64,000 nucleotides of DNA from an uncultured Dehalococcoidia bacterium. GTDB taxonomy: Bacteria; Chloroflexota; Dehalococcoidia; Lucifugimonadales; G958296245. A model generated the notes under the pieces. The model saw only the letters and a program-made list of their open reading frames with translations. It was not told the DNA's origin and searched no databases. Position 1 is the first letter of the stretch; every line of letters begins with the position of its first letter. The stretch spans positions 434,001-498,000 of the forward strand of contig OY282458.1 in assembly GCA_958296245.1 (NCBI GenBank). The letters are read 5' to 3'. Made by a program: the position numbers and the translations under genes. Shown piece after piece: positions 6,997 to 18,160 of the stretch.

Positions 6997-8037
6997 TCAT
7001 GGGACCGTGAGGACCAGCTTGCCGAATACCCGACGGCTCTCGAGCGCCTCGTGGGCGCTGGCAGCCTCCTCGAGGCTGAACGTCCTGTCTATTACGCTGC
7101 GTATCGTACCCCGCGAGGCCATCTCCACGATCTGCCTGAGGTCGTCCTTCCTGCCCATGAAGACGCCGAAGACCGTCTGGTTCTTCAAGAATAGCTGCCC
7201 CATCTGCAGTTCGGCCTTATACCCCGACGTGACCCCGCAGATGCCGTAGCGCCCGCCGGGGGCCAGCGACGCGAACGCGTCCGCCCACGGGTCCGCCCCG
7301 ACGTGGTCCACCACCACGTCTACGCCTATGCCGTCGGTCAGCTCCCGCAACCGTTGCCGCACGTCCTCCGACGTGTACCGGATGACGTGATCCGCACCTA
7401 GGGCCGCCGCCATCTCCGCCTTCTCGTCCGTGCTGGTCGTGGCTATCACCGTCGCCCCTACGACGCGCTTGGCCACCTGGATAGCCGCCGTTCCGACGCC
7501 GCTGGACGCCGACAGCACGAGCGCCGTCTCCCACGCCCTCAACCGGGCGCGCCGCATGAACATGCTCCACACGGGCATGAAGACGGTTGGAAGCGCCGCC
7601 GCCTGCTCATAGGACAGCGTGTCGGGTATGGGCATTACGTTGGCCGCGGGCACGGAGACCAGCTCCGCGTAGCCGCCCGGCGTGGTCCTGCCCAGCATGT
7701 CGGGAGACACGCAAAGCTCGTCCTCGGCTGCCAGGCAGTGGCGGCACTGCCCGCAGGTGATCTTGGGGTTCACGACGACGCGGTCGCCGGGCGCGACGCG
7801 GCTCACTTCGGAGCCGACCTCCAGAACGTCGCCCGCCGCGTCGGATCCCAGCACGTGGGGCTCGGTCATGGCGAGCCGCGTGCCCCGTACGCCGAGGCGC
7901 ACGAAGACGTCGAGACGGTTGAGCGCGCAGCATCTGACCCTGACCAGCACGTCGTTGGGCCCGACGCGCGGGTCCGGCAGGTCGCCGTAGGTGAGCTCCT
8001 CCGCCCCCCCGTGCTGCGTTATGTAGGCGGCCTTCAT
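6997..8037 (-). CDS. Zinc-type medium-chain dehydrogenase/reductase, quinone-reductase-like
   Basis: 346 residues. The N-terminus 'MKAAYITQHGGAEELTYGD' and the nucleotide-binding stretch 'ALVLSASSGVGTAAIQVAK' place it in the MDR superfamily, NADPH-dependent. Four cysteines (C95, C98, C101, C109 in CGQCRHCLAAEDELC) form the structural zinc lobe of alcohol dehydrogenases. The catalytic-zinc residues are not conserved. The GHE motif reads VLGSDAAG, and the first-ligand region reads CCALNRLDVF rather than CGxCGTD. It therefore looks like a structural-zinc-only enzyme acting as a quinone/enone reductase. The start codon overlaps the stop of the upstream LLM-class gene by 4 bp (ATGA), so the two are translationally coupled and may act on one substrate. 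Confidence 0.85.
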   Translation of the reverse strand: MKAAYITQHGGAEELTYGDLPDPRVGPNDVLVRVRCCALNRLDVFVRLGVRGTRLAMTEPHVLGSDAAGDVLEVGSEVSRVAPGDRVVVNPKITCGQCRHCLAAEDELCVSPDMLGRTTPGGYAELVSVPAANVMPIPDTLSYEQAAALPTVFMPVWSMFMRRARLRAWETALVLSASSGVGTAAIQVAKRVVGATVIATTSTDEKAEMAAALGADHVIRYTSEDVRQRLRELTDGIGVDVVVDHVGADPWADAFASLAPGGRYGICGVTSGYKAELQMGQLFLKNQTVFGVFMGRKDDLRQIVEMASRGTIRSVIDRTFSLEEAASAHEALESRRVFGKLVLTVP

Positions 8038-8990
8038 GCGGGACCAGGCCCCCGGGCGGTCAGCGGGAACACGCCCTCTGCGAAAGCTTCCATCCGCTCG
8101 ACGCTCTCCTGAACCGTCCCGCCCGTCAGGCCGACCGACAGATGATTCACGCCCAGAGCCTCCAGGTCCGCCAGGTCCGATTCGACCTTGCTCGCGGGCC
8201 CGGCCAGGAGGCGGCCGCTGCTATCCGGCCCGCCGCCGACGGGCCAGCCCACGGCATAGGCGACGTCGAGCGCCGCCGGGTCTCGCCCCGCCTCTTCGGC
8301 GTGCCGCCGCAACCGGTCCACTCCCCGCCGCAACTGCGAGAGCGTCTCCAGCGGATGAGCGGGGTTGGTCCCAATGGGAAACCAGCCGTCTCCCAGAGCC
8401 GCCGCCCTCTTGAGAGCCCGGCGGCTCTCCCCGCCTATCCATATGGGCGGATGGGGCCTCTGCACCGGCCCGGGCTCGAAGACCACGCCTGAGAAGTCGC
8501 AGTAGTCCCCGTGAAACTCGGGGGCGTCCGACGTCCACAGCTCCCGGAAGACCCGGATATACTCGTCCGTCACGGCCCCGCGCTGCTCGAATGGGGGCGT
8601 GTTCAGGGCGTCGAACTCCTCCTGCATCCAACCAACGCCGCAACCCACGGTGAGCCTGCCGCCGGAGAGCACGTCGATCGTCGAAAGCACCTTGGCGGCG
8701 TGTACCGGGTTGCGGTAGGGCAGGACGAGCACACCGGTCACGAGGCGGATTCTGCTGGTGGCGGCGGCCACGAAGCTCAACAGCGTTGGCTGGTCCAGAA
8801 AGGAGCTCGCGCTGCCGAATTCGCCGCTGGCATTGTACGGATACCGCGAGGCAACCCGCCGGGGGACTATCAGATGGTCCCCGGTGCTCAGGAATCCGAA
8901 CCCCAACTCCTCGCCCCTGCGGGCCAGAGACGTGAGCGCGTTGGCCGTAGCCAGCGGGCCGCCGATTGGAAGAGAGAACCCAAACTCCAT
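8034..8990 (-). CDS. LLM-class flavin/F420-dependent oxidoreductase
   Basis: About 318 residues. The start was set at the ATG ending at 8990 (MEFGFSLPIGG), because the upstream in-frame extension lacks family similarity. The luciferase-like TIM barrel shows 'ARRGEELGFGFLSTGDHLIVP' at the N-terminus, then 'RIRLVTGVLVLPYRNPVHAAK', 'LSGGRLTVGCGVGW' and 'RPHPPIWIGGESRRALKRAA'. These are hallmark motifs of F420- or FMN-dependent LLM enzymes. Family reactions include F420-dependent hydride transfer and FMNH2-dependent monooxygenation; cofactor choice cannot be settled from sequence. Such enzymes are strongly expanded in SAR202 Chloroflexota, where a role in oxidising recalcitrant organic matter has been proposed. 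It overlaps the downstream MDR gene by 4 bp. Confidence 0.9.
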   Translation of the reverse strand: MEFGFSLPIGGPLATANALTSLARRGEELGFGFLSTGDHLIVPRRVASRYPYNASGEFGSASSFLDQPTLLSFVAAATSRIRLVTGVLVLPYRNPVHAAKVLSTIDVLSGGRLTVGCGVGWMQEEFDALNTPPFEQRGAVTDEYIRVFRELWTSDAPEFHGDYCDFSGVVFEPGPVQRPHPPIWIGGESRRALKRAAALGDGWFPIGTNPAHPLETLSQLRRGVDRLRRHAEEAGRDPAALDVAYAVGWPVGGGPDSSGRLLAGPASKVESDLADLEALGVNHLSVGLTGGTVQESVERMEAFAEGVFPLTARGPGPA

Positions 8991-9114
8991 CGCACCACCA
9001 ACAAGGCCTCGCTCTGCGGCGTTGCCCTCCCCTTTGCGGGCCTGCGCCAAGCCTACCCTCGCGCCCCGCAGCTTGTCAACGGCGTGGGCGGCGCGGGCTA
9101 ACGGGGCGCCCTCA

Positions 9115-9259
9115 GAGGGTGTTTGCAGAGTCTTGAAGAAGTATAATGATATGCAGACCGTATCCCGGCGGCCTCAACGGCGAACAGTGGGGAATCATCT
9201 CTCCGTTGCTGACGCCAGCCAGCCCCCGGGGGCGGCCGTGCCGCGTGCGAGGCTGGCAT
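9115..9259 (+). pseudogene. IS5-family transposase N-terminal remnant with putative left end
   Basis: The frame at 9146 gives 'MICRPYPGGLNGEQWGIISP', then 'LLTPASPRGRPCRV'. This is the start of IS5/IS427-type (DUF4096) transposases, whose usual form is RPYP.DL..EQW..I.PLLPP...GGRPR. Similarity ends near 9256 and the frame runs into unrelated residues until a stop at 9350. At 9115-9140 lies GAGGGTGTTTGCAGAGTC, about 30 bp before the ATG, as expected for a left inverted repeat; this part is inference. The catalytic DDE domain is gone. The rest of the 441-bp gap between 8991 and 9431 shows no other gene. An AT-rich stretch (9355-9400) before purB probably carries its promoter. Confidence 0.65.
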
Positions 9260-9431
9260 GGGCCGGCGCGGGGGCAGTTATCGGGTTGGGTGCCGGAGAT
9301 AGTGAGGAGACCGAAGAACAGCCATCGGCGCCGCGCTTTGCAACCCCTCTAAACGGGTTGGATTATCCGGTTGTCCAATTGCAACTACATTCAGGTTAGG
9401 GACGTGACACTCCGGTTGTAGGGATGCACTC

Positions 9432-10754
9432 ATGATCGAACGGTATTCCAGGCCTGGAATGAAGCGGGTCTGGGCGGAAGAGAGCAAATACGACAGGTGG
9501 CTTGCCATCGAGTTGGCGGTCTGCGAGGCGTGGGCCGACGAGGGCATGGTCCCCCGCGGCGACGTGGAAAAGCTGCGTGGCGCCTCCTACGACTTGGGCC
9601 GTCTCAGGGAGGTCTTGAAGGAGACGCGCCACGAGATGACGGCGTTCCTGAGCTCCATCACAGGGCGCGTCGGGCCGGAGGGCCGATGGCTCCATCTGGG
9701 GCTTACCACGAGCGACGTTTGGGACACGGCTACGAGCCTCCAGCTCATGGAGGCGCTCGACCTGCTGATCGCTGAGACTGACGGGCTCCTGGAAGCGCTG
9801 CGCGCGAGGGCGGTCGAGCATAGGGACACGTTGATGATGGGGCGCACGCACGGCGTTCACGCCGAGCCCGTCACGTTCGGCCTGAAGCTGGCTCTCTGGT
9901 GGGACGAGACGCGCCGCAACAGGGAGAGGTTGGTCCAGGCCAGAGACGTGATAGCCTACGGCAAGATCTCCGGGCCCGTCGGCACTCACGCCACGGTCCC
10001 CCCCTCCGTCGAGGCGAGGGTATGCGAGCGTCTTGGGCTCAGGCCCGCGCCGGTGTCGAACCAGGTTCTTCAGCGGGACCGCCACGCCCAGGTCGTGACG
10101 ACGCTCGCCATCGCCGCCGCGTCGCTGGAGAAGTTCGCGACGGAGATACGCGGCCTTCAACGCACGGAGGTCGGCGAGGTTGAAGAACCCTTCCCGGAGG
10201 GCCAGGCCGGCTCCTCGTCGATGCCCCACAAGCGCAACCCCGAGCTGTCCGAGCGGGTATGCGGCCTCGCGCGTCTCATCCGGGGCCACGCCGTCACGGC
10301 CTTGGAGAACGTCGCCCTGTGGGGTGAGCGTGACATCAGCCACTCGTCCGCCGAGCGGGTCATCCTGCCCGACGCCTGCTTGGCGCTGGACTACGTCCTG
10401 AACCTGTTTGCCGGCGTTATCGCCGGCCTGAATGTCTACCCGGACCGGATGATGCGGAACGTAGAGTCGACCCGCGGGATCGTATTCTCGCAACGGGTGC
10501 TGCTGGCGCTGATCGAGGCGGGGATGGCGCGCGAGGAAGCATACGGCATCGTACACGACCGCGCGATGCGGAGTTGGGAGAGCGGCGAGGACTTTCGGGA
10601 CATGGTCCGCTCCTCGCCCGAGGTCTCCCAGCGGCTGACGCGAGGCAGCGTAGACGCCCTGTTCGACTACGGATACTATGTCCGGCACGTCGACGAGACG
10701 TTCGAGCGGGCAGGGCTCGCCGGTCCCACGGAAGAAACCGGGGCGTCGCACTGA
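9432..10754 (+). CDS. purB: Adenylosuccinate lyase
   Basis: 440 residues, full length. PurB cleaves SAICAR to AICAR and adenylosuccinate to AMP, both releasing fumarate. It belongs to the fumarase/aspartase superfamily. The signature loop GSSSMPHKRNP lies around M264, with the catalytic serine just before it. The conserved 'MGRTHGVHAEP' places the general-acid/base His at H140, and 'HLGLTTSDVWDT' is the upstream conserved block. The start ATG at 9432 follows a weak AGGGATG ribosome site. purC follows after a terminator and a repeat, so the two purine genes look separately transcribed though adjacent. Confidence 0.96.
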   Translation: MIERYSRPGMKRVWAEESKYDRWLAIELAVCEAWADEGMVPRGDVEKLRGASYDLGRLREVLKETRHEMTAFLSSITGRVGPEGRWLHLGLTTSDVWDTATSLQLMEALDLLIAETDGLLEALRARAVEHRDTLMMGRTHGVHAEPVTFGLKLALWWDETRRNRERLVQARDVIAYGKISGPVGTHATVPPSVEARVCERLGLRPAPVSNQVLQRDRHAQVVTTLAIAAASLEKFATEIRGLQRTEVGEVEEPFPEGQAGSSSMPHKRNPELSERVCGLARLIRGHAVTALENVALWGERDISHSSAERVILPDACLALDYVLNLFAGVIAGLNVYPDRMMRNVESTRGIVFSQRVLLALIEAGMAREEAYGIVHDRAMRSWESGEDFRDMVRSSPEVSQRLTRGSVDALFDYGYYVRHVDETFERAGLAGPTEETGASH

Positions 10755-10800
10755 CGGACTGCGGAAATACGGGTCTTGCATAGGGGCATCGCCGTAACTT

Positions 10801-10838
10801 GGTGAGGAGTGCAGGGAATCGCCCTCACCGTTTTGTTA
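10801..10838 (+). terminator. Probable intrinsic terminator of purB
   Basis: GGTGAGG (10801-10807) pairs with CCTCACC (10823-10829) across a 15-nt loop and is followed by GTTTTGTTAT. The 7-bp stem plus the broken T-run suggest a moderate rho-independent terminator about 45 bp after the purB stop. Confidence 0.55.
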
Positions 10839-10842
10839 TCCT

Positions 10843-10931
10843 GAGGGTGTCTTTCAGATACAATTTGTTCCCCTTCCCGGCTGGGATGGGGGGCTGCAAG
10901 GAAGCGGGGAGCGTTTCCTCAGCCTGTTGAA
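10843..10931. repeat. Dispersed intergenic repeat, family A/B, copy 2
   Basis: Positions 10843-10865 match 4095-4117, and 10915-10931 (TTTCCTCAGCCTGTTGA) resembles 4129-4145. Both blocks occur in the same order, but spacing differs: here a G-rich insert separates them. The copy fills the gap between the purB terminator and purC. Confidence 0.45.
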
Positions 10932-10996
10932 TATGTGAAGATTGTCTTTACATGCACTGGAACCACGGAAACCCTTGTCAGGAGGTTGAATAGACG

Positions 10997-11872
10997 ATGA
11001 ATGTGATCAGGGAATCCCCCCTGCCCAACTTGGTGTATCGGGGAAAGGTGCGTGACACGCACACGCTGGACGGTGGGCTGCTTCTGATGGTTGCCACGGA
11101 CCGGATCTCGGCGTTCGACGTCGTTCTTCCGACCTCGATCCCCGACAAGGGAGCCGTGCTTAGCCAGATGTCCGCGTTCTGGTTCGGCCAGACCGAACAC
11201 GTCGTGCCAAACCACATGGTCGCTATGGCCCACGATCGCCCCGGCGTGGATATACCGCCGGAGCTCGCCCGCAGGGCTATGGTGGTCCGCAGGGCGGAGA
11301 GGATCGACGTCGAATGCGTCGTGAGGGGGTATATCACCGGCTCGGCATGGTCCGAGTATAGGAAGAGCGGCACCGTCTCGGGCCAGCCGATGCCTTCCGG
11401 CCTGAGGGAGGGCGACAGGTTCCCGGACCCGCTATTCACGCCTACGACGAAGGCGGAGGTGGGCCACGACGAGAACCTCACCTTCCCCCAGGTCGTGGAT
11501 ATGGTTGGCCGAGGCACGGCTGACCGACTCCGCGACGTAGCGACGGAGGTATACGTCTTCGCGCACGACTTGGCCAAGGAGAAGGGTATACTGATAGCCG
11601 ACACGAAGATGGAGTTCGGACACGTGGACGGTAAGCTCATTCTGATCGACGAACTGCTGACGCCCGACTCCAGCCGTTTCTGGGACATGTCGGGGTACGG
11701 TCCCGGCAAGTCTCAGCCCAACTTCGACAAGCAGTTCGTGAGGGACTGGCTCGACGCGCAGGGCTGGGACCACGAACCCCCGGCCCCCGAGTTGCCTGAA
11801 GACGTGGTTGCCAGGACGCGGGAACGGTACGTCGAGGCGCACCAGCGATTGACGGGCAGGCCCATCGCTTAG
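10997..11872 (+). CDS. purC: Phosphoribosylaminoimidazole-succinocarboxamide synthase (SAICAR synthetase)
   Basis: 291 residues. PurC joins CAIR and aspartate with ATP to give SAICAR, the substrate of the PurB encoded just upstream. Recognised motifs are 'YRGKVRDTHTLDGGLLLMVATDRISAFDV' near residue 14, 'IDVECVVRGYITGSAW' and 'LADTKMEFG'-type text (here 'IADTKMEFGHVDGKLILIDE'). The region 'LTPDSSRFWD' is the usual end of the catalytic core. The length matches the longer, yeast-like bacterial form rather than the roughly 240-aa E. coli form. A strong AGGAGG ribosome site stands 10 nt before the ATG. DUF3105 and purS genes follow closely, so a purC-purS transcript is likely. Confidence 0.96.
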   Translation: MNVIRESPLPNLVYRGKVRDTHTLDGGLLLMVATDRISAFDVVLPTSIPDKGAVLSQMSAFWFGQTEHVVPNHMVAMAHDRPGVDIPPELARRAMVVRRAERIDVECVVRGYITGSAWSEYRKSGTVSGQPMPSGLREGDRFPDPLFTPTTKAEVGHDENLTFPQVVDMVGRGTADRLRDVATEVYVFAHDLAKEKGILIADTKMEFGHVDGKLILIDELLTPDSSRFWDMSGYGPGKSQPNFDKQFVRDWLDAQGWDHEPPAPELPEDVVARTRERYVEAHQRLTGRPIA

Positions 11873-11910
11873 CACAATGGAAGAAGGGACCGCGCAACGG
11901 CGGAGGTAAG

Positions 11911-12627
11911 ATGTCGTCAACCGCAAATCAACACAGGGACAGGCTCACGCCTACTCAGGCAAGGGCGGCGCGAAGAGACCGCAGGAAGCGGCGCAGGCGG
12001 CTTGTCCGCTGGGGCGGCTTTAGCGCCATCGGCCTGCTGGCCTTCCTGTTCATAGTCGCGCTGTTCGCTCCTTCGCTGCCCATATCCCTCGGCTCGTCCG
12101 GCGCCGGCACCGCGGGAACGAAGATCCCGGATCAGGGCGGGAATCTCCACATGCTGCGCGGGGAAGACCACCCGCCGTATAACTCCGTGCCGGGCACGTC
12201 GGGCTGGCACTACTCGGACGCCAACGCGCCCATCGGCTGGGGAGTCTACAGCGAGTTCATTCCCGATGAGGTGCTGGTGCATAACCTCGAGCACGGGGGC
12301 GTGGGCATACACTACAACTGCCCCGACGGGTGCGACTTCCTGATTCGTCAGCTCGAATCGATGGCCCGGTACGTCGAGGGCAATTGGTTGGACGAGTACA
12401 TCTCCACGCTCGACCCCGATCAGCAAGCTGACGAGTTGAGACGCGCTCGGAACCTGGCGCGCCGCTACAAGGTCGTCATGTCGCCCTACCCGGACATGGA
12501 CTCGAAGATCGCGCTGACGGCGTGGAACTTCCTGGACAAGTTCGAAGAGTACGACGAGCCGAGGGTACAGAGGTTCCTGCTGGACCACGTGAACTCGCCC
12601 AACGCGCCCGAGTACTTCAGCCCGTAG
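11911..12627 (+). CDS. DUF3105 membrane-anchored protein
   Basis: 238 residues. A basic N-terminus (RAARRDRRKRRRR, about residues 14-30) precedes one hydrophobic helix (about 34-55, GFSAIGLLAFLFIVALFAP). This orients the protein with a short cytoplasmic tail and an extracytoplasmic domain. The remainder fits DUF3105: 'DHPPYNSVPGTSGWHY', 'PDEVLVHNLEHGGVGIHYNC' and 'SPYPDMDSKIALTAW'. The family has no established function; conserved His, Glu and Cys in 'HNLEHGG...YNC' could bind metal, which is inference. A GGAGG site precedes the ATG. Its stop is 5 bp from the purS start, so it is probably co-transcribed with purC and purS, but nothing links it to purine synthesis. Confidence 0.8.
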   Translation: MSSTANQHRDRLTPTQARAARRDRRKRRRRLVRWGGFSAIGLLAFLFIVALFAPSLPISLGSSGAGTAGTKIPDQGGNLHMLRGEDHPPYNSVPGTSGWHYSDANAPIGWGVYSEFIPDEVLVHNLEHGGVGIHYNCPDGCDFLIRQLESMARYVEGNWLDEYISTLDPDQQADELRRARNLARRYKVVMSPYPDMDSKIALTAWNFLDKFEEYDEPRVQRFLLDHVNSPNAPEYFSP

Positions 12628-12632
12628 CCTTG

Positions 12633-12884
12633 ATGTACGTCGCCCGGGTCTACGTAACCCTCAGGCCTACGGTCAACGACCCGGAGGGTCTGACGATACG
12701 GAACGGCCTCCACCAACTCGGCTTCGACATGGTGCGGAGCGTCAGGTCGGGCAAGTACATGGAGATCCGCTTGGACCAGGACTCCGAAGAGGCCGCTTCC
12801 GCGAGCGTGTCGGAGATGTGCGGGCAACTCCTAGCCAATCCGGTCATCGAGGACTATCGCTTCGAACTGGAACAGGCCGGATAG
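12633..12884 (+). CDS. purS: Phosphoribosylformylglycinamidine synthase subunit PurS
   Basis: 83 residues. PurS bridges PurQ and PurL in the three-part FGAM synthase that converts FGAR to FGAM. The sequence 'MYVARVYVTLRPTVNDPEGL' followed by 'LHQLGFDMVRSVRSGKYMEI' is typical of the family. The frame is open further upstream, but that region overlaps the DUF3105 gene; the ATG at 12633 gives the normal length. It begins 5 bp after the previous stop with no visible ribosome site, so translation probably depends on re-initiation. In most genomes purQ and purL follow directly. Here they do not, and must be elsewhere. Confidence 0.92.
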   Translation: MYVARVYVTLRPTVNDPEGLTIRNGLHQLGFDMVRSVRSGKYMEIRLDQDSEEAASASVSEMCGQLLANPVIEDYRFELEQAG

Positions 12885-12939
12885 CCGGAAGCCCAGCCGC
12901 ACGGGTCCGACTTCGAAAGGCGCGGCGCGGCAGGGGAGC

Positions 12940-12999
12940 AGCCGTCTGCTCTATTAGGACGGCGTTGGTCGAGAAGCCTCATGAGGTCTGAACAGTTAC
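12940..12999. repeat. Dispersed intergenic repeat, family C/D, copy 2
   Basis: CGTCTGCTCTATTAGGAC at 12943-12960 and GGTCTGAACAGTTAC ending at 12999 align in order with 4202-4260. The middle is diverged and about 2 nt shorter. It lies downstream of purS and upstream of the zinc-ribbon miniprotein. Confidence 0.5.
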
Positions 13000-13099
13000 G
13001 AACGAGCGCGGGCGAGGTTGCGCAGGCAATCTGCCAGTCATATAATTGTGCGGCGCCAGCGGTCCCGAATACCGGATGGCTCCCGGAGGTATTTTCATC

Positions 13100-13240
13100 T
13101 TGGAGGCCTATTGTCTGAAGTGCCGAGCTCATCGAGAAGTCAAAGACCCGGAAGAGGTCTCCCTCAAGAATGGCAGACCTGCTACGCGGGGCAAATGCTC
13201 GGTCTGCGGCCGAATCGTATTCAGGATAGGCAAGGCGTAG
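13100..13240 (+). CDS. DUF5679-type zinc-ribbon miniprotein
   Basis: 46 residues if translation starts at the TTG at 13100: 'LEAYCLKCRAHREVKDPEEV' and onward to 'GKCSVCGRIVFRIGKA'. Two CxxC pairs form a probable zinc ribbon, and the sequence fits the small DUF5679 family, whose members normally begin 'M.AYCVKC'. The TTG start is preferred because a perfect GGAGGT (13084-13089) stands 10 nt upstream. The in-frame ATGs at 13046 and 13076 have no ribosome site and would put that GGAGGT inside the coding region. The function of the family is unknown; a nucleic-acid or ribosome-associated role is a guess. It stands alone between purS and the CADD-like gene. Confidence 0.75.
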   Translation: MEAYCLKCRAHREVKDPEEVSLKNGRPATRGKCSVCGRIVFRIGKA

Positions 13241-13353
13241 GTCTCGCCGAGGTCTGATCTACACCCCGTTTTTCACAGCACTGCGGCGCGGCTTAATTAG
13301 GATCGTCATCAGGCCCGGTCTTGGGGCCGTCGGAATGGCTGGGAGGAAGCTAC

Positions 13354-14010
13354 GTGATCACACCTGTCATCGAAAGCATAGATCGGATAGTCAGGAACAG
13401 GAGCCTATTGACGCACCCCTTCTACCAGGCATGGACGGCGGGAGACCTTCCGGTGGAGTCGTTGAAGGGCTACGCCGCGCAGTACTTCCACTTCGAGAAG
13501 GCATATCCCACCTTCCTGAGCGGCATCCATCACCGGTGCTCGAACCAGTCGGTGCGCCAGCTCCTGCTCGACAACCTGTGGGACGAGGAGCACGGAGAAG
13601 AGAATCACGTCGAGCTGTGGCTGCGTTTCTGCGACGCGCTGGGATTGGAACGCAGCGACGTCCAACAGGGAGAGCCTCTGGACTCCACTAAGGAACTGGT
13701 GGACACCTACAGGGGATTGACTTCAGAGGCGCCTATGGCCGCCGGGGCAGCGGCGCTGTACGCCTACGAGTCCCAGGTGCCGGAGGTGGCGCAGGTCAAA
13801 ATGGACGGGCTGAGGCGCTTCTACGGCATGAAAGGCGACCGCGAAGTGTCGTTCTTCCGTGTCCACCAAGCCATGGACGTCGAGCACTCTGCCGCAGAGA
13901 GAGAAATGGTAACCACTCTGGCCTCCACCGACTCGGAGAAGGAGGCCGCCGTTGCCGCAGCCGACAAGGCCACCGGCGCCCTCTGGAGATTCTTGGACGG
14001 CGTCTATTAG
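13354..14010 (+). CDS. CADD-like di-iron oxygenase, candidate self-sacrificing pABA synthase
   Basis: 218 residues from the GTG at 13354, chosen because GGGAGG stands 7 nt upstream. The TenA/PqqC-like fold matches chlamydial CADD. With a constant offset of 3, every known CADD residue is present. The metal ligands are E78, H85, E139, H171, D175 and H178 (CADD E81, H88, E142, H174, D178, H181). Y24 and K149 correspond to Tyr27 and Lys152. In Chlamydia this protein makes the para-aminobenzoate part of folate from its own tyrosine, with that lysine as amino donor. Motifs are 'WDEEHGEENH', 'YAYESQVPEVAQVK' and 'VHQAMDVEH'. No folate gene is adjacent. The assignment is strong at family level; the pABA role is inferred from residue conservation. 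Confidence 0.85.
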   Translation: MITPVIESIDRIVRNRSLLTHPFYQAWTAGDLPVESLKGYAAQYFHFEKAYPTFLSGIHHRCSNQSVRQLLLDNLWDEEHGEENHVELWLRFCDALGLERSDVQQGEPLDSTKELVDTYRGLTSEAPMAAGAAALYAYESQVPEVAQVKMDGLRRFYGMKGDREVSFFRVHQAMDVEHSAAEREMVTTLASTDSEKEAAVAAADKATGALWRFLDGVY

Positions 14011-14125
14011 GCCGCTGCGGCCGCCGGGCCGGTATGGTAACTCCCGCTCACGTGGGGTTTGGGGTGGAGAGCCGACCCTCTGACCGACGGAGAAGCTCCC
14101 CTCAGGCGGCGCTAGGGATGGGCCG

Positions 14126-15394
14126 ATGCTCGTAGATCTCGCCTACGGCAGGACGGGCCTCACAGTCGATCTGCCCGACGACCGCGCCGCCGTCGTCGAG
14201 CCCGCCCATGCGCCGGGACTGCCCGACGAACGCGGGGCGCTGACCACTGCCCTACGGAACCCCATCGACGCGCCACCGCTCCGCCGCATGGTAAGGCCCC
14301 GGCAGACGGTCGCCGTCTCGGTGTGCGACATTACGCGGCCCATGCCGTCCTCGACGGTGCTTCCGGCGGTGCTGCGAGAGCTTGCCCACGTCCCGAACGA
14401 GAACATCGTCATCCTGATCGCCGCCGGCACACACCGGGCCAACACCCCGGAGGAGCTCGACGACATGCTCGGCCCCGACGTGACGGCCAGCTACCGCGTT
14501 ATCAACCACGACGCGTTCGCGGCGGAGGACCTCGAGTATTGCGGGGAGACGCCGGACGGGATCCCGATATGGCTAAACCGGCACTGGCTGGCCGCTGACT
14601 TCAGGATCACGACGGGTTTCGTGGAGCCGCACTTCTTCGCCGGGTTCAGCGGCGGCCCCAAGATGGTCGCGCCGGGGCTGGCGGGCTTCGACACCACCAT
14701 GAGGCTCCACGACGCCGGCATGATCGGCCATCCCAACGCGGTCTGGGGGGTCACCGAGGGCAACCCGATCCACGACGCGATTCGGAGCATCGCCGCCGCT
14801 ACCGGCGTGGACTTCAGCGTGGACGTGACGATCAACCGCAGCCGCCAGATCACGAGCGTCTACGCGGGCGAGATCTTCGCCGTCCACGGCGCCGCCTGCC
14901 AGGATGCCAGGCGAGCGTCGATGCGCCCGGTCCCGGAGCCATTCGACCTGGTGATCACGACCAACAGCGGCTATCCGCTCGACATGAACTTGTACCAGTC
15001 GGTCAAGGGCATGTCGGCAGCCGCACAGGTCGTGCGGAAGGGAGGGGCGATCGTCTGCGCCGCCGAGTGCAGCGACGGCGTCCCCGACCACGGCGAGTAC
15101 AGGAACCTGCTCGCCATGAGAGACACCCCCTCGGAGCTGCTGGAGATGATCATGGCGCCGGGGTTCAGCCGCCACGATCAATGGCAGGTCCAGATTCAGG
15201 CGCAGATACTGCTCAGGGCCAGGGTGCTTATGAAGTCGTCCTATCTGACTGCGGAGCAGGTCCGGGCGGCGCACCTGGAGCCCGTGGACGACCTGCAGGC
15301 CGCCATTGACGAGCAGGTCAAGCGCATCGGCCCCGGGGGCAGCATATGCGCCATCCCCCAGGGCCCGCAGACGATCCCGTACGTCACGGGCTAG
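14126..15394 (+). CDS. larA: LarA-type nickel-pincer racemase (lactate racemase family, DUF2088)
   Basis: 422 residues. All active-site residues of LarA are visible. H103 is in GTHR; H169 and K179 are in 'EPHFFAGFSGGPK', the lysine that binds the nickel-pincer nucleotide; H195 is in 'MRLHDAG'; Y290 and K294 are in 'NLYQSVKGM'. DITRP at 68-72 is the N-terminal signature. These positions equal those of the Lactobacillus enzyme with a shift of 4-5. The family racemises or epimerises 2-hydroxyacids, and many members do not act on lactate, so the symbol denotes the family only. Cofactor synthesis genes larB, larC and larE are not in the window. A 2-hydroxyacid dehydrogenase (30.8 kb) and a GlcD-like enzyme (62 kb) are potential pathway partners. 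The start ATG has only a weak ribosome site. Confidence 0.88.
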   Translation: MLVDLAYGRTGLTVDLPDDRAAVVEPAHAPGLPDERGALTTALRNPIDAPPLRRMVRPRQTVAVSVCDITRPMPSSTVLPAVLRELAHVPNENIVILIAAGTHRANTPEELDDMLGPDVTASYRVINHDAFAAEDLEYCGETPDGIPIWLNRHWLAADFRITTGFVEPHFFAGFSGGPKMVAPGLAGFDTTMRLHDAGMIGHPNAVWGVTEGNPIHDAIRSIAAATGVDFSVDVTINRSRQITSVYAGEIFAVHGAACQDARRASMRPVPEPFDLVITTNSGYPLDMNLYQSVKGMSAAAQVVRKGGAIVCAAECSDGVPDHGEYRNLLAMRDTPSELLEMIMAPGFSRHDQWQVQIQAQILLRARVLMKSSYLTAEQVRAAHLEPVDDLQAAIDEQVKRIGPGGSICAIPQGPQTIPYVTG

Positions 15395-15468
15395 TCAGGC
15401 TTTGGGAAGCCTTGAACCGCTGACTGAGATGCCGCGGCTCTGGATCCCAGTCATATCAGTCCCTCTAC

Positions 15469-16341
15469 CTATCGGACTGTATAGGCATCGTGCGCCTTGC
15501 CGATAAGTTTAATGAAGACATCTTCATGGTCGTCAACGTCACTTTGACGAACATGCATACGATAATATCTGGATCTGGTATCGTATGCAACGATCTCCAG
15601 TCCGGTTTTATTCAGCCACGAGGTCAGCTCTTCGTCTTGTGGGATTCTGAACCCTGTCAGGACATAAGCTTTTCTGGGACTAAATGTTACGAAATTCCGT
15701 GCCACGCCGCCGGACGCGAGGCCGATGTGATGTTTTTTGTAATTCGGGATCAGCTCTGGCTGAACCTTGTTTATCAACTCGACCAGCCGATCCATTATCT
15801 GCAAAGAGCCCTTGGAGGCTTTTCGCTCCCAATGTGCCCTGTCTACGGTCTCCCCTTCATCCTCTTCCTCCGTTCCCCACGTGGTTAGGTCAACCACGCG
15901 GGTTGCTATCAGCGTGAATGCCCCGTTGACCTCCACACCCTTTATTTGGATGGCGATGAGCGGAATTGCTCCGTTGAGGAGAGTAATCACGTTGAGAAAT
16001 CGGCTGGTCACGTCCTCCGCTACAATGACGGCGGTATGCTCGTACTGCGGATAACGGCGGCGTTCAATATCCCAATACTCGATTGTGCGGATAATGTGGG
16101 ATTCGTCCACTTCGCCGAGCTGAATCTCAACTTCGTACCGTCTTGAGGCTTCAACGTCTTGCAACAGCAGATCTAGCCGTCCCCCACTGGGCTGGCGGCG
16201 CTCGCTGCCGCGTACTTCCAACTCTCCCAGACCGAGCAGTGACGAGTTCTCAACCAAGCGTTCATGAAGCCACCGCTCGTTTAGCGTCGAGTCGTTCTTC
16301 AGGCTAATGATTTTGGGGGTCACCAAGTCAGGGACTGCCAT
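15469..16341 (-). CDS. PD-(D/E)XK nuclease-like protein with DUF5655-like C-terminus
   Basis: 290 residues. The ATG ending at 16341 is preferred over one 21 bp upstream because AAGGAG lies 5 nt before it. A core of 'GGRLDLLL' (D57) followed by 'RYEVEIQLG' (E72, Q74) gives the D...ExQ variant of the PD-(D/E)XK nuclease motif, with a supporting 'HIIRTIEYWD' helix. The C-terminal third, 'NFVTFSPRKAYVLTGFRIP', resembles the DUF5655 domain often fused to such nucleases. Function is unknown; DNA cleavage or binding is inferred. The gene is clearly less GC-rich than its surroundings (25 of 60 bases at 15541-15600, 31 of 60 at 15601-15660, versus about 70% in larA). This suggests horizontal acquisition. 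No partner gene is adjacent. Confidence 0.7.
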   Translation of the reverse strand: MAVPDLVTPKIISLKNDSTLNERWLHERLVENSSLLGLGELEVRGSERRQPSGGRLDLLLQDVEASRRYEVEIQLGEVDESHIIRTIEYWDIERRRYPQYEHTAVIVAEDVTSRFLNVITLLNGAIPLIAIQIKGVEVNGAFTLIATRVVDLTTWGTEEEDEGETVDRAHWERKASKGSLQIMDRLVELINKVQPELIPNYKKHHIGLASGGVARNFVTFSPRKAYVLTGFRIPQDEELTSWLNKTGLEIVAYDTRSRYYRMHVRQSDVDDHEDVFIKLIGKAHDAYTVR

Positions 16342-16450
16342 ATGCTCTCCTTCACTCTCCACGTATGGGTTGACTTACCATGCGGAATCAACCAGAAACC
16401 ATGTCCAGATGAAATGTTTGGCGTTTCGGAGTGACGACGAACCCCGTGCG

Positions 16451-18160
16451 CTAGCTGCCCTTTCCTACGTGTAGCCTGACAGGCTCCACGCCGGGGGCGG
16501 GGCCGCAGTACTTCAGGTCCACGGGGATGGCCGACGTGGAAATGTCCTCGCCCTCCCTGCGGACGACGATGTTGCGGAGCCACCTCACGTCGTCGGTGTT
16601 GGGGTAGTCGGTGCGGAAGAAGGCGCCTCTGCTCTCCTTTCTCTCCAGGCTGCACCTGAGCATAAGCTCAGCGGTGAGGAGCATGTTCGGAAGCTCCAAG
16701 GCGCCCTCCCACTCGTAGCCGTCGCGGGCCGCAAGGGTCGAGAACGACGACCTGATACGCTCCACGGCCTCCAGGCCCTCCCGGAGGCCTGCCTCGTCCT
16801 TGAAGACCCAGGCGCACCGGCGCATCGCCTGCCTGAGCTCGTCCTTGAAGGCGTCCGCACGCGCTCCTTCCGTCCCGCTGACCAGCGCGCGGGCGCGGTC
16901 CATGACGCCCTCCGCCTGCGCGTCGTCCAGGGTTGTACCGCCGGCCTCCAGAGCCCTTTGGGCGGCGTAGACGCCGGCCCTGCGCCCGAACACGAGGGTT
17001 ATCATCGACGTATAGCCCTCCGGCCGGGCGTGCCCATAGACGCCGCCGGCGCCTCCGCCCGCGCAGTACAGGCCGGGGACGTTCGTCTCGCAGCGGGTAT
17101 TGACCCTCACTCCTCCGATGGTCGTGTGCATCTGCGGCGTGCTCTGGACCGGCTCCTTCCAGGGGTCTTCTGCGCCGGGCCGTTCCTTATGCTCCCTGGC
17201 AAGCCATACCCACAGATCAGGCGCGCCGTCGTTCAGCGGCTCCGTAAGGTCGATGTAGATTGCGCCCCGTTCGGTTGCTCTGCCCTCCTGGATCTCCATG
17301 CCGATGGCGTAGCAGAGCTCCTCCTTGGTCACGCTGCGCGGGTTGACGATGCCGTACCTTTCGAGGAACTGCTCGCCGCGGGTGTTCAGGAACTTGGAGC
17401 CTGGCGGAAAGCCGATCGACGTGGATACGAACTGGGTGCTCTCCATGTCGATCAGCTCGGCGCCCGCCCGGAAGGCCGCGGCCTGCCCGTCGCCCGTCTC
17501 GAACCGGTCGACGGTGGTGGGCGCGAATATCTGGCTGTAGGTCCCGGTGGCCAATATCGTCGACGACGACTTGATGACGACAAGCTCGTTGCGGGCGCAG
17601 TCCAGGGCGACCGCTCCCACGACGGCGTCCTCGTTGGTAAGCAACTCCACCAGAGTAACGTCGTCCAAGACCCGGATGCCCCTCTTCCTGACCTGGTCTA
17701 TCAGCACGTCCATCATCGCGAATCCGGGCCTCAGGCCGTAGTCGAACTCGACGCCGGGGCGCGGCTTGAAGGCGAGATTCCTGGTGCGGCTGTGGGCCGC
17801 CGTCCAGTGCATGGCGATGCGGCCCTCGTCGTCGCGCTCGAAGTCGATGCCCCACCTCTCCAGGTCCCGCACGCTGTCGGCGGCCTCCTCGACCAGTATC
17901 TTGGCCAGGTCCTGATTGCCCAGAAAGCCCCCGTGGGAGAGCAGGTCCCGCATGGCGCTGTCGGTCGTGTCGTCGGGGTCTCCCCAAGGACCGACCGCCG
18001 CGCTCGTGCCGACGTTGTAGGTGCATCCGCTGTGCCCGAGCCGGCCCTTGACGATCATGACGACGGACGCTCCCCGGTCGTGCGCTTCCACGGCGGCTCG
18101 GCATCCGGCACCTCCGCCGCCAACGACCAGCACGTCCGCCGTATATGCTGCGTGAGTCAC
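16451..18160 (-). CDS. FAD-binding oxidoreductase, fumarate reductase/succinate dehydrogenase flavoprotein family
   Basis: 569 residues. The start is the GTG ending at 18160, with GGAGGT 5 nt upstream; the frame is open beyond it but without similarity. The N-terminus 'ADVLVVGGGGAGCRAAVEA' is the FAD dinucleotide-binding motif. 'GHSGCTYN' occupies the place of the FAD-contacting loop, and 'HTTIGGVRVNTRCETNVPGLYCAGG' with 'GYTSMITLVFGRRAG' are C-terminal flavoprotein hallmarks. These fit the FRD/SDH/L-aspartate oxidase family. The C-terminal helical domain has 'LRCSLERKESRGAFFRTDYP', typical of SdhA-like proteins. No iron-sulfur or membrane subunit gene is adjacent, so a soluble reductase of unknown substrate is more likely than a respiratory complex. 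It is divergent from the isomerase gene at 18363. Confidence 0.8.
   Translation of the reverse strand: MTHAAYTADVLVVGGGGAGCRAAVEAHDRGASVVMIVKGRLGHSGCTYNVGTSAAVGPWGDPDDTTDSAMRDLLSHGGFLGNQDLAKILVEEAADSVRDLERWGIDFERDDEGRIAMHWTAAHSRTRNLAFKPRPGVEFDYGLRPGFAMMDVLIDQVRKRGIRVLDDVTLVELLTNEDAVVGAVALDCARNELVVIKSSSTILATGTYSQIFAPTTVDRFETGDGQAAAFRAGAELIDMESTQFVSTSIGFPPGSKFLNTRGEQFLERYGIVNPRSVTKEELCYAIGMEIQEGRATERGAIYIDLTEPLNDGAPDLWVWLAREHKERPGAEDPWKEPVQSTPQMHTTIGGVRVNTRCETNVPGLYCAGGGAGGVYGHARPEGYTSMITLVFGRRAGVYAAQRALEAGGTTLDDAQAEGVMDRARALVSGTEGARADAFKDELRQAMRRCAWVFKDEAGLREGLEAVERIRSSFSTLAARDGYEWEGALELPNMLLTAELMLRCSLERKESRGAFFRTDYPNTDDVRWLRNIVVRREGEDISTSAIPVDLKYCGPAPGVEPVRLHVGKGS

Follow-up and report, generated by a model that had tools for sequence, protein, structure and literature searches.

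The closest described systems are two self-sacrificing para-aminobenzoate (pABA) synthases, CADD (CT610) of Chlamydia trachomatis and NePabS (NE1434) of Nitrosomonas europaea. An E. coli strain lacking pabABC is complemented by NE1434; NePabS itself cannot do without Tyr25, Tyr41 or Lys159, and Tyr45 and Trp99 are important to it (PMC11965152). Beside the metals, CADD carries Tyr141 and Tyr170 and prefers Mn/Fe, and NePabS carries Phe148 and Phe177 and prefers Fe/Fe; the F148Y mutant of NePabS functions equally with both metal sets (PMC11965152). The wider HDO/heme-oxygenase-like superfamily includes PqqC, TenA, BesC and UndA, whose substrates are external and which have in common with the protein described here a seven-helix heme-oxygenase-like bundle.

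The window analyzed is a stretch of 64,000 nucleotides from an uncultured Dehalococcoidia bacterium, and it contains a CADD/PabS-family gene on the plus strand at 13354..14010 (218 amino acids, GTG start, TAG stop). The assignment uses the TIGR04305 family model, the best PDB sequences, the Z score of a structural model, and conservation among 110 sequences. We put at roughly 0.92 the probability that this gene encodes a self-sacrificing pABA synthase of the CADD/PabS family (TIGR04305) that replaces PabA, PabB and PabC.

Immediately 5' of the GTG (13354) lies GGGAGGAAGCTAC, in which a Shine-Dalgarno-like GGAGG (13342..13346, plus strand, read from the sequence) stands 7 bases ahead of the start. 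An alternative TTG at 13321 would lengthen the reading frame, but relatives begin near the GTG instead. The good ribosome site claimed in an earlier note on this DNA is borne out by this spacing and by the starts of the relatives, and the eight residues that it listed (Y24, E78, H85, E139, K149, H171, D175 and H178) are all found as numbered. The constant shift of 3 relative to CADD, also claimed there, is right because the phmmer alignment to the CADD structure 1rcw is free of gaps to about residue 197, with residue n of the query matching residue n+3.

Against the NCBIfam model TIGR04305 (CADD family; curated cut-off 200 bits), the protein scores 265.6 bits (E 2.8e-79), and neither this match nor those to the structures below can be put down to chance. 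Among solved structures, the top sequence match is 9pj4, a 4-aminobenzoate synthase (E 2.8e-54) that, on our reading of its sequence and peptides, is NePabS. CADD (PDB 1rcw, 8va9 and 8vag) follows at E 1.5e-49 (1rcw) and 1.8e-49, and the next match, PqqC, reaches only 4e-13; the two best relatives of solved structure, from Nitrosomonas and Chlamydia, are thus both proven synthases of this kind. The AlphaFold2 model of the protein, for which 19 class members served as input, has a mean pLDDT of 94.8. It superposes on CADD with TM 0.95-0.97 and rmsd 1.0-1.2 A (for 1rcw, VIA Z 34.2 and rmsd 1.0 Å across 213 residues), far better than on PqqC (VIA Z 26.1, 2.0 Å, TM on the query at most 0.87), so that the structural alignment suggested earlier as a check gives a predicted model with the CADD fold. 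From the TIGR04305 score, the PDB ranking and the fit of the model to CADD, we conclude that the pABA synthases are orthologues of the window protein, which is no generic member of the TenA/PqqC group. Placement in a TenA/PqqC clade that never conserves Tyr and Lys, which the earlier note had named as a refutation, was not what we found.

The same comparisons bear on the possibility that the substrate is a free small molecule, the enzyme being of the TenA, PqqC or another HDO type and its Tyr and Lys coincidental. The fold and the matched Pfam superfamilies (TENA_THI-4 and Haem_oxygenas_2) are held in common, the PqqC and BesC models match weakly, and their structures fit at lower Z. However, the scores are far below the cut-offs (59.6 bits versus 240 for the PqqC model TIGR02111, and 55.8 versus 500 for the BesC model), sequence and structure similarity to PqqC, TenA, BesC and UndA is lower than to the synthases, and PqqC lacks the sacrificial pair, its sequence alignment showing His and Arg opposite Y24 and K149.

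In the window protein, Y24 (the sacrificial Tyr) and K149 (the amine donor) stand at the CADD positions 27 and 152. The predicted metal ligands are three His and three carboxylates (E78, H85, E139, H171, D175 and H178), and the relay aromatics Y40, Y44 and W89 correspond to Tyr41, Tyr45 and Trp99 of NePabS, which thus shares both the sacrificial pair and the relay with the window protein but carries an additional loop segment of about 10 residues. Y24, K149, Y40, Y44, W89 and the six ligands are unchanged in 110 of 110 family members, a set composed of Dehalococcoidia class members and named genomes from about 20 phyla. For comparison, we used ten class paralogues that score below the TIGR04305 cut-off. 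Tyr and Lys are both aligned in only three of them (L143, L144 and L147), and in none of the ten are Tyr, Lys, the aromatics and the ligands all kept. Three others (L140-L142) keep every ligand, but Phe and Arg replace the sacrificial Tyr and Lys, as should be the case in a metal-only HDO. With these paralogues added to the evidence above, we consider an HDO-type role for the window protein very improbable.

Two of the paralogues, L143:534-1118 and L147 (class family f30), are short divergent CADD-like proteins of about 194 amino acids (91.6 bits). They keep Tyr24 and Lys149, but some 20 residues in the region of the E78 ligand have disappeared, as has the His178 ligand, and they are perhaps a degenerate or repurposed paralogue.

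The chemistry predicted for the window protein is that described for CADD and NePabS in PMC11965152 and the work it cites. The heme-oxygenase-like helical bundle would bind two metals through the six ligands, and the reduced dimetal site would activate O2. A radical would be relayed via Y44, W89 and possibly Y138 to Y24, whose Calpha-Cbeta bond would be cleaved to leave a glycine; the carboxylate would be formed by further O2 chemistry, and the amino group would be donated by K149. Each protein molecule would yield at most one pABA. FolP (dihydropteroate synthase) would couple this pABA to the pterin from FolE and FolK, and the enzyme would take the place of PabA, PabB and PabC in an aerobic, SAR202-like Chloroflexota bacterium. 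The earlier proposal of this chemistry in preference to a TenA role, which carries over from the characterized enzymes, is supported by orthology, by the conservation of the Tyr, the Lys and the aromatics, by the fit to CADD, and by the folate genes without PabB and the folate-gene neighbours of homologues described below.

Beside the metals, the window protein has Tyr138 and Phe167. The former agrees with CADD (Tyr141) and differs from NePabS (Phe148), and the latter agrees with NePabS (Phe177) and differs from CADD, which has Tyr170 and uses Mn/Fe. Since this is the arrangement of the NePabS F148Y mutant, the window enzyme is predicted, from that one mutant, to work with either Fe/Fe or Mn/Fe. 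Among 110 relatives, we counted 97 Tyr/Phe, 7 Tyr/Tyr, 5 Phe/Phe and 1 Phe/Tyr pairs, in a sample biased toward Tyr/Phe, since its members were ordered by similarity to query sequences of that kind. The three closest relatives of the window protein are Phe/Phe, so even tightly grouped proteins differ in the pair. Among named proteins, the nearest (55-61% identity) belong to SAR202 and Dehalococcoidia assemblies, and three of them form a fully supported group with the window protein (100/99). The Tyr/Phe pair is possibly a new feature. The natural YF, FF and YY series, of which YF and FF both occur within a single tight SAR202 clade, makes the Fe/Fe versus Mn/Fe rule testable on wild-type proteins; SAR202 OSU_TB36 has an FF sister of the window enzyme.

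The host genome is a single contig of 2.69 Mb (98.4% complete), in which family searches found no PabB. It encodes one chorismate-binding enzyme, which passes the TrpE model (568.5, cut-off 517.7) and falls below the cut-off of the PabB model (304.5 versus 328.4); the trpE gene comes after trpS, which was identified by eye. There are four class-IV aminotransferases, one of them IlvE, and none of the four reaches a PabC cut-off, although sequence distinguishes these enzymes poorly. Tandem class-IV aminotransferases at G000:C1:262733-264349 (L006 and L007) are both below the IlvE, DAT and PabC cut-offs. The downstream folate genes covered were folE, folP, folK and folC; all are present, and folP adjoins folK. 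The genome therefore shows the combination looked for in a replacement, namely downstream folate genes and no PabB. It also encodes a haem-copper oxidase subunit I (COX1), which makes the O2 needed for the pABA chemistry plausible.

In a survey of 294 genomes of the class, a TIGR04305-type enzyme over the cut-off was found in 42 and a TIGR00553-type PabB in 89. The two occur together in 3 genomes versus 12.7 expected (Fisher p 2e-4, kinship ignored); within the four mixed families, 3 co-occurrences compare with about 6 expected by hand count, a weak effect. Only 4 of the 14 control genomes reach the TIGR00553 cut-off, which confines the anticorrelation to one type of PabB. Thirty-nine of the 42 CADD-bearing genomes have folP, and the other three are 72-77% complete. 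In the class as a whole, folP is present in 247 genomes, and 128 genomes have CADD or a TIGR00553 PabB; at least 119 of the 294 therefore have folP without either, and their pABA may come from other PabB types, salvage or some further source. Because of these genomes, the absence of PabB alone proves little, and, the TIGR00553 cut-off being strict, we set it aside as proof. The search for pabABC that the earlier note had proposed favors the idea in this genome, with no PabB and no PabC over a cut-off, but by itself it is weak evidence.

These numerous genomes imply another pABA source in the class, and in this they favor the explanation that the window protein belongs to the family but has a second or main job besides pABA supply, its pABA being salvaged or otherwise made. 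A host-cell role has been claimed for CADD of Chlamydia. Gene positions give this explanation some further support, since in class family f43 the gene lies in a trp operon and elsewhere it is beside a hydrolase of the metallo-beta-lactamase (MBL) fold. Against it, a sacrificial pair invariant in 110 proteins is hard to explain without sacrificial chemistry, and homologues elsewhere have folate genes as neighbours: in Magasanikbacteria (L073 and L085), a planctomycete (L068) and Oligoflexia (L108), they adjoin dihydropteroate synthase, FolK or FolC, and each of these homologues has the full residue set. We therefore regard another job in place of, or beside, pABA synthesis as highly unlikely.

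The tryptophan cluster of family f43 and its relatives contains the CADD gene beside trpB-like, trpS and trpE genes (L037-L041, L054, L055, L077, L084, L105, L116, L122 and L124), so that the genes for CADD and the chorismate-using TrpE stand side by side. In eight other loci (L046, L047, L048, L049, L051, L053, L066 and L093), the CADD gene directly adjoins a gene for the MBL-fold hydrolase (about 244 amino acids, Pfam Lactamase_B_2), which is possibly a partner of CADD.

The CADD gene of Chlamydia is in a folate gene cluster, whereas the window gene lies outside folate genes, with purB, purC, DUF3105 and purS upstream and a larA-like gene downstream. This context is not conserved in 99 homologous loci, and for that reason we rejected it as functional evidence. 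The DUF3105 protein (11911-12627, plus strand) is encoded between purC and purS in the purine run, and a 297-residue reading frame (15469-16362, minus strand) has no Pfam match. When 8000-18000 was searched with Rfam for riboswitches close to the gene, no hit exceeded the gathering score.

Beyond the class, the family is also found in Acidobacteriota, Ignavibacteria, Marinimicrobia, Myxococcota, Cyanobacteria, Planctomycetota, Actinomycetota and CPR bacteria, and in two archaeal assemblies; any single assembly could be misbinned. Of 48 named genomes that carry CADD and span many phyla, only 1 passes TIGR00553, a count that is consistent with replacement but limited by the strict cut-off and by incomplete assemblies. 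The description "outside Chlamydia" in the earlier note is true of this protein but is not new, since NePabS of Nitrosomonas is characterized and Chloroflexi are already listed among the holders of putative self-sacrificing pABA synthases (PMC11965152). The kind is already known, both as an NCBI family model and as a published occurrence in Chloroflexi, and the window gene is a clear new member. Our literature search found no paper naming both SAR202 and p-aminobenzoate.

We think it an even call whether the window protein represents an uncharacterized majority type, with the Tyr/Phe pair and the use of either metal set, of which CADD and NePabS would be the rarer extremes, and whether this pABA route would then be a widespread, aerobic one across many phyla, CPR bacteria and archaea among them, rather than an oddity of a few lineages. 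By its predicted function, the window enzyme gives a free-living SAR202-like bacterium without PabB a way to make pABA, and it suggests that a one-shot, protein-consuming route feeds folate in many uncultured lineages.
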